From Gammaproteobacteria bacterium (GTDB lineage: Bacteria; Pseudomonadota; Gammaproteobacteria; Xanthomonadales; Wenzhouxiangellaceae): a DNA stretch of 64,000 nt. Location: positions 1 through 64,000 of the forward strand of contig JAHJQV010000028.1 of assembly GCA_018819105.1 (NCBI GenBank). Direction: 5' to 3'. A model generated the notes under the pieces. It saw only the letters and a list, made by a program, of their open reading frames with translations. It had not been told where the DNA came from and did no database searches. Shown in pieces: positions 34,394 through 35,634 of the stretch (positions are counted from its first letter, which is position 1; each line of letters opens with the position of its first letter). The position numbers and the translations under genes were made by a program.

Positions 34394-35395
34394 TCAGGTA
34401 TCAGAACCCATCTGATGGACATGCCCCATAAACACCTCACGCGTCAGCAGCAGAAACAGCGCTGAGGCGATGCCGGAGGCGCCGATGATCATGGCCATGA
34501 CCATGATCTGGTAACGCACGGCGATCAGTGGCGAGACACCGGACAGGATCTGCCCGGTCATCATGCCCGGCAGCGACACCAGGCCCACGGCGAACAGTGA
34601 GTTGATGATCGGGATCAGCGCCGTCTGCATGGCAGTGTTGCGGGCACTGTGGTAATTCTCGTCGCGGCGCAGTTCTGCCTGCAGACGATCTGCGGCAAGG
34701 CTGACACAGAGTGTACCCCGTCACCATTCCTGTAACACTCAGCGATTCGGAACGCGTTTAGCCGCAAGGCATGGCTCGCAGATAATGGCCTTTCCATTAC
34801 CAAGAGCCATAACATAGCGGATGAATGCGTTCCGGCACGCCCAAAGGGAGCGTGCCTGATTCGACATTGCTACGTTGCAATCCTTGTCAAGGGTGAGCCA
34901 TTCACTGCGGATTGCGTCTTGCACTGCCGACTCAGGCGCGCTCTGAGAGTCACCGGTATGGCGACGGGGCACACTTATGGCATTGGCAAACACCATGCCG
35001 GCCAGCGGGATGCTGTACTGCGGTCGATACCAGGGCTCCAGCCGCAGCACCGCGAGGATGACCAGTGCGAATGTGACGCCCCCACCGACGACGATGGCGA
35101 GCAGGGCGTGCCGGTACAGCCGCCAGCGCAACTGTGGCACGGTGCCCAGGGCAATCCAGCTTGAGGCCAGCACCATCACCAGCAGCACTGCCAGTACCAC
35201 CCAGGCGCTGTCGGATTCGAACAGGAAGGTGAGCAGGTAGCCGATGATGAGCAACTGCACCAGCATGCGCAGCAGGGCGTGGATGGCATTGCCGGTCTGC
35301 AGCGACCAGCGCCACATGATGCCCAGGGTGAGCAATACCGGCAGCAGCATGAATGTCAACGCAAACAGGCTGATGGTCTGCACCTCGGTGTTCAT
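34394..35395 (-). pseudogene. fetB-like (UPF0014) iron-export permease gene, split by an insertion
   Basis: The N-terminal half runs from ATG 35395 (MNTEVQTISLFALTFMLLPV) through several spans to IPLAGMVFANAI, then enters inserted DNA. The rest resumes beyond the insert in a new frame as CVSLAADRLQAELRRDENYH, ALIPIINSLFAVGLVSLPGM and ILSGVSPLIAVRYQIMVMAM to the stop at 34394. Removing the 266-bp element restores one continuous FetB frame (NAI-LC-VSL). FetB pairs with the ATPase FetA in iron export; no fetA is nearby. The gene as it stands encodes a hybrid 218-residue product and a detached C-terminal part. Confidence 0.85.
34710..34975 (-). mobile_element. 266-bp inverted-repeat element (MITE-like) inside fetB
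   Basis: The ends are imperfect 33-bp inverted repeats, 34710-34742 and 34943-34975. Read inward both begin AGTGT, then one variable base, then CCCCGTC; 26 of 33 bases match. The element is too short for a transposase. It carries a 77-residue frame continuing from fetB (VPRRHTGDSQSAPESAVQDA ... CEPCLAAKRVPNR). No target-site duplication is evident when the ends are set at AGTGT/ACACT. The family is not identified. Confidence 0.75.
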
Positions 35396-35423
35396 GATCG
35401 CAGGCATCGTTGCTCAGCAGTCC

Positions 35424-35634
35424 TAAGCCCGGAATATTCATGACCCGACCGTCGCGAGACGCTTCCAGAGCCCGCCCCGGACTGGATCCGGGGTCTTGTA
35501 GCTGTGACGTTTCGCGACCAAGCGCACCGGAAGCGTACTCGCCTGTACGGTGAGGATGCGCGACCGCACGAAACGCTGCGGATGCCGGGCTTGGAGCCGT
35601 CGCAGCAGGTTGGGTTATGAATATTCCGGGCTAA
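35424..35634. repeat. 211-bp palindromic intergenic repeat
   Basis: The outer ends are inverted copies: AGCCCGGAATATTCATGACC at the left and its near-complement (GGGTTATGAATATTCCGGGC) at the right, about 26 bp with two mismatches. Inside are a CCCCGGACTGGATCCGGGG hairpin and a longer imperfect palindrome around GTTTCGCGACC and GCACGAAAC. A shorter variant of its right end (TCATGAATAATGCGGGCTAG) recurs at 40437-40456. It has no coding frame I trust and looks like a non-autonomous dispersed element. Confidence 0.65.

Follow-up and report, generated by a model that had tools for sequence, protein, structure and literature searches.

The segment that interrupts the iron-exporter gene fetB in the window (the whole 64,000-nucleotide stretch of DNA analysed here) is very likely a copy of a non-autonomous IS630-type MITE, belonging to a repeat family of about 262 bp, that was moved in trans and landed in fetB. 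It is short and non-coding, carries terminal inverted repeats and is present in many copies, features by which a MITE is recognised. In the proposed mechanism, IS630-family (Tc1/mariner-type DDE) transposases would recognise the inverted tips of the MITE in trans and insert it at a TA, preferably inside CTAG, with duplication of the TA. Landing of the window copy in fetB would have truncated the protein after 144 codons, and small later changes may have blurred the TA on both sides. From the sequence we infer cut-and-paste movement, the identity of the responsible transposase and the loss of FetB function.

The original prediction of a mobile inverted-repeat element in fetB was borne out, and loss of FetB function would have followed from the interruption; the element thus accounts for the broken gene. 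Inverted ends are present at positions 34710-34975, are imperfect, and enclose a segment that is indeed too short for a transposase, none of which fits inside. As had been proposed, the segment lies inside the FetB frame, with 144 codons upstream and 104 downstream that match one FetB/UPF0014 protein (Table 1). Comparison with an intact allele was possible since two relatives, G001 and G008, have an uninterrupted fetB; G001 belongs to the same genus, has a syntenic neighbourhood and encodes a FetB 76% identical over the query part. The earlier suggestion that clean removal of the segment restores fetB proved incorrect, because excision of 34710-34975 leaves ...GCC ATA C TGT GTC AGC..., with the downstream part one base out of frame. 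The junction after exact removal is two bases shorter than that in G001; the junction in the relatives reads ...ATG ACC AG[T/C]... and encodes NA-MTS-V/ISL (NA-MTS-VSL in G001). It is scarcely credible that the segment is a natural part of FetB, an intron or an intein instead of an insertion: its 5' side does fall within one reading frame, but it is absent from the FetB of relatives, where the gene is intact, it contains stops, its removal leaves a frameshift, and the same sequence occurs at about 40 unrelated sites. Neither half of fetB contains a further stop, and both appear to be under constraint (NG86 dN 0.15, dS 0.89 versus G001); therefore the insertion is probably young relative to the split from G001. 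Two other copies in the repeat family, L002 (C45:25850) and L009 (C7:42124), seem to break long frames, of 425 and 288 codons with the flanks joined, and fetB may not be the sole gene hit.

Table 1. Features of the interrupted fetB locus in window coordinates.
Feature	Position	Strand	Basis or remark
fetB (UPF0014, PF03649), upstream part, 144 codons	34976..35407	-	Pfam E 1.5e-25; 76% identical to intact G001 protein
fetB, downstream part, 104 codons and stop	34394..34709	-	81% nucleotide identity to intact G001 fetB
Continuation of the fetB frame for 78 codons within the element, to an internal stop	34739..34975	-	ORF list
Element proper, GTGTACCCC...GGGGCACAC	34711..34974	.	Flanks of 56 other copies; copy alignment
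Outer A and T of the originally predicted span	34710 and 34975		Leftovers of flanking TA dinucleotides
Left terminal inverted repeat (outer stem, 5' arm)	34712..34740	+	Helix 1, consensus structure
Right terminal inverted repeat (outer stem, 3' arm)	34945..34973	-	Consensus structure; arm comparison
Internal hairpin A (helices 2-4)	34742..34840	+	12 pairs that show compensation between genera
Internal hairpin B (helices 5-8)	34847..34944	+	9 pairs that show compensation between genera

A search for other copies was positive, with 43 matches to the element in its own genome (G000), 40 of which are strong (E below 1e-30). The resulting figure of about 40 copies or fragments is a lower bound, and copy number is underestimated because the draft assembly breaks at the repeat. 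Many contigs of this genome begin or end within an element copy (for example C4, C12, C16, C31, C57, C60, C61 and C66), and the element explains many of the contig breaks of the draft. A length of 260-276 bp is typical, with a body of about 262 bp; across the bacterial family, complete copies are mostly 260-265 bp long and length variants range from 143 to 537 bp, and the aligned copies have the common ends CTAG|TGTACCCCGCCGGAAATACTGTAAC...GTCACAGTATTTCCGGCGGGGTACA|CTAG. Copies in the same genome are mostly 73-85% identical to the window copy and often over 90% identical to one another; the window copy and its neighbours are 81% alike, and their differences are partly paired and compensating. 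Matches occur in 29 of 43 genomes and in five of seven genera of the same bacterial family. The exact end pattern gave hits in genomes of this bacterial family only and none among the other sampled genomes of the order. A plasmid collection yielded two matches, both at chance level.

The flanks of the other copies define the target. Across 56 copies (112 ends), the flanking bases are G at 110 of 112 ends (98%), A at 99 (88%), T at 92 (82%) and C at 97 (87%). The repeat family therefore has a TA target that often lies within CTAG; the adjoining G is part of the element and the TA probably the duplicated target inside a preferred CTAG. For IS630 the same CTAG/TA target was reported (Tenzen and Ohtsubo, 1991, as cited in PMC2170065); ISY100, of the IS630 family, has been shown to duplicate TA (PMC2170065). 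In the window copy, GA and TT stand where TA is expected and a TA duplication is not readable. The earlier statement that there is no target duplication thus holds for this copy but not for the repeat family, given its C-TA-G flanks, and the missing duplication is a peculiarity of one decayed copy. Nor was there support for the notion that the element is unusual for the DDE type, because the target of the repeat family is TA/CTAG, as in the DDE family IS630. Movement by another DDE group with a 4-bp YTAR/CTAG duplication (IS5- or IS701-like) is improbable. The 21 of 56 copies with CTAG on both sides fit a 4-bp or a TA duplication alike; where the sides differ, however, mostly only the TA is common to both, the outer base varies and the adjoining G is nearly fixed (110/112). 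In one copy, L020, both inner bases are altered in parallel, as expected for positions inside an inverted repeat and hence inside the element, and the ends of the repeat family resemble those of IS630-type elements. Still less probable is a REPIN-like element moved by a RAYT (TnpA-REP) nuclease, which would likewise be inverted, structured and multicopy with a conserved tetranucleotide at its foot; here the tetranucleotide varies apart from the G, and the ends form no hairpins of their own, as REPINs would, the arms pairing only with each other.

The element is also strongly structured. The 266 bases fold far above shuffled sequence, with a z of -7.5 as DNA (0 of 200 shuffles) and of -10.6 as minus-strand RNA. 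A consensus structure derived from 21 copies in 12 genomes or more comprises three stems, namely the outer stem of inverted repeats and two long internal hairpins, in which 95.7% of cells pair. Of its 93 pairs, 33 have changed on both sides across genera, compared with a mean of 20.4 (sd 2.0) in shuffled data (0 of 500 shuffles), and sliding the partners abolishes this covariation signal. The doubly changed pairs include 12 of the 25 in the outer stem (helix 1), and the internal hairpins hold 21 of the 33. Two processes could produce such compensation, selection for a folded molecule and template switching within hairpins. These data bear on the 77-codon frame that had been described as fused to FetB. 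The fusion was seen, as an open reading frame at 34739-35407 whose 222 amino acids comprise 144 of FetB and 78 codons of run-on, while a coding role was unsupported: we rejected it and regard the run-on as incidental, because variation across the repeat family follows base pairing.

The fold raises the question of whether the repeat serves chiefly as a structured module, of RNA or DNA, in a host function such as transcript processing near genes, its mobility being secondary or lost. We consider this unlikely. The three-stem fold is maintained in at least five bacterial genera with the covariation described above, which extends to internal hairpins that transposition alone should not need, and the repeat has been retained in genomes where no matching transposase is detectable. 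Such compensating changes could, however, also arise from template switching in imperfect hairpins, no Rfam family matched in a scan, and the copies have the TA/CTAG flanks and IS630-like tips of a mobile element. Furthermore, many copies are over 90% alike within a genome, indicating recent spread, and copies break fetB and probably other long frames. The IS630-type MITE thus remains the preferred reading. Within the repeat family, the window copy retains 85 of the 93 consensus pairs, and 11 of the 25 pairs that differ between it and the local copy L005 are compensated on both sides. Judged from these retained and doubly compensated pairs, the window copy is a separate subfamily and not just a decayed local copy. 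That it is merely an aged copy of the local burst was disfavoured both by the compensated pairs and by the constraint on the fetB halves.

Candidate sources of transposase were sought in the same bacterial family, where DDE_3 transposases occur in four of 43 genomes. The element's own genome has one DDE_3 gene above the cut-off, which lacks ends like those of the repeat family; it was rejected as a partner, matching ends being absent from its locus. Among 74 end matches in this genome, the only convergent intact pairs are the MITE copies themselves, and no full-length element was found between paired ends. The lack of a transposase with matching ends in its own genome counts against the IS630-MITE reading, as such a partner is usual, though not required, for a MITE. 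A search for a full-length element with similar ends was successful in a sister genus, where G005 carries an IS630-type element, L127, whose 361-aa DDE_3 frame is intact (Pfam E 7.7e-20) and shows, in translation, the motifs CDEKS, CDNHATH and MVERF. The frame sits within about 1.15 kb of DNA bounded by the inverted ends TGTACCTCGTCAAACACTCTGTAAC / TGGACCTCGCCGCAAATTCCGT. The better end of L127 matches ends of the repeat family at 28 of 30 positions in G027, 26 of 30 in G006 and 25 of 30 in G007, compared with at most 21 of 30 for shuffled tails against all other IS630 ends. The corresponding values are 22/30 for the subfamily of the element's own genome and 21/30 for the window copy, the latter no better than the best shuffles; this value and the unreadable TA duplication of the window copy also weigh against the IS630-MITE reading. 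Ends matching a full-length IS630-family element are thus found in three subfamilies and, as described below, in the tips of a sister family. Also counting against the IS630-MITE reading, a transposase related to that of L127 occurs in just one of the 43 genomes of the bacterial family, and no decayed relics of it were found in these genomes. Of 369 genomes of the class, 22 have related transposases, mostly within elements whose ends take the same form, CTAGTGT.... At L127:1060-2520 the IS630-type element lies between MITE-end remnants and adjoins another repeat (AGCCCGCATTATTCATGA), the locus forming a small stack of insertions nested at CTAG.

The tips and the body of the element have diverged differently. 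End positions 10-20 differ between subfamilies and change on both arms together: the mean mismatch is 0.95 between the arms of one copy versus 4.6 between arms of different copies, a contrast reached in 0 of 10,000 permutations, which is descriptive and not a strict probability as the copies are related. A sister family in other species (L182:1840-2105, L183, L184, L185 and L180) has the same internal body with different 18-base tips (TGGGCCATGCGGCTAATTAGGTAAC). In G014 and genomes close to it, this body, which aligns to copies of the repeat family with a blastn E of about 1e-18 to 1e-20, is joined to quite different tips, CTAGTGGGCCATGCGGCTAATTAGGTAAC. The sister tips match the end of an IS630-type element from another family (L205 in G218) at 27 of 30 positions, against a shuffled maximum of 20. 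These comparisons suggest that the tips change with the transposase whereas the body is retained. More speculatively, the body may have been selected as a folded nucleic acid and have outlived several transposases, its roughly 18-base tips being swapped on both arms to match different IS630 transposases; we regard this as possible but doubtful. If true, a non-autonomous element adapts its ends as it turns to new sources of movement. The covarying body and exchangeable tips are the most interesting side of the repeat family, which offers an unusually clear record for a MITE, with one covarying body and different tips that match different IS630 elements. Such a record allows direct tests of whether selection acts on the fold of MITE bodies, and of the ways in which non-autonomous elements keep pace with changing transposases.

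Elements of this kind are already known, since TA targets, stem-loops and fusions to genes have been described in bacterial MITEs (RUP, CREE and ERIC; PMC2229807, PMC2759123), and the three are set apart from the present family by their published descriptions. RUP, the repeat unit of pneumococcus, is likewise short and non-coding, with IS630-like ends, a TA target and many copies (PMC2229807). RUP is 107 bp long and was proposed to be moved by IS630-Spn1, a partner IS in its own species (PMC2229807), whereas the family here is about 262 bp, has a three-stem body and has no partner found in its own genome. The Correia elements (CREE/NEMIS) of Neisseria are bacterial MITEs with a short form of 107 bp, whose transcripts fold into stem-loops and are sometimes fused to genes, with RNase III processing proposed (PMC2229807). 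ERIC (with RU-1) of enterobacteria is also a multicopy repeat, and the 127-bp ERIC has been called MITE-like (PMC2759123); it is shorter and from a different lineage, while for the present family a candidate source of transposase and sister families with matching ends have been identified. With IS630 and ISY100 the element shares a TA target, a CTAG preference and terminal inverted repeats of the form (C)TAGTGT... (PMC2170065), but unlike IS630-family insertion sequences it carries no transposase. The repeat family itself appears undescribed in the literature searched: keyword searches of an open-access library, a weak negative, found no paper describing these repeats.

Upstream of fetB, some 17 bp from the start codon, a further inverted-repeat element of about 208 bp occupies 35424-35633 of the window, with left end TAAGCCCGGAATATTCATGACCC and right end GGGTTATGAATATTCCGGGCTAA. 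It has 39 matches in the same genome, and copies of the about 262-bp and about 208-bp families are often nested or abutting at common CTAG sites (L005, L013, L014 and L033).
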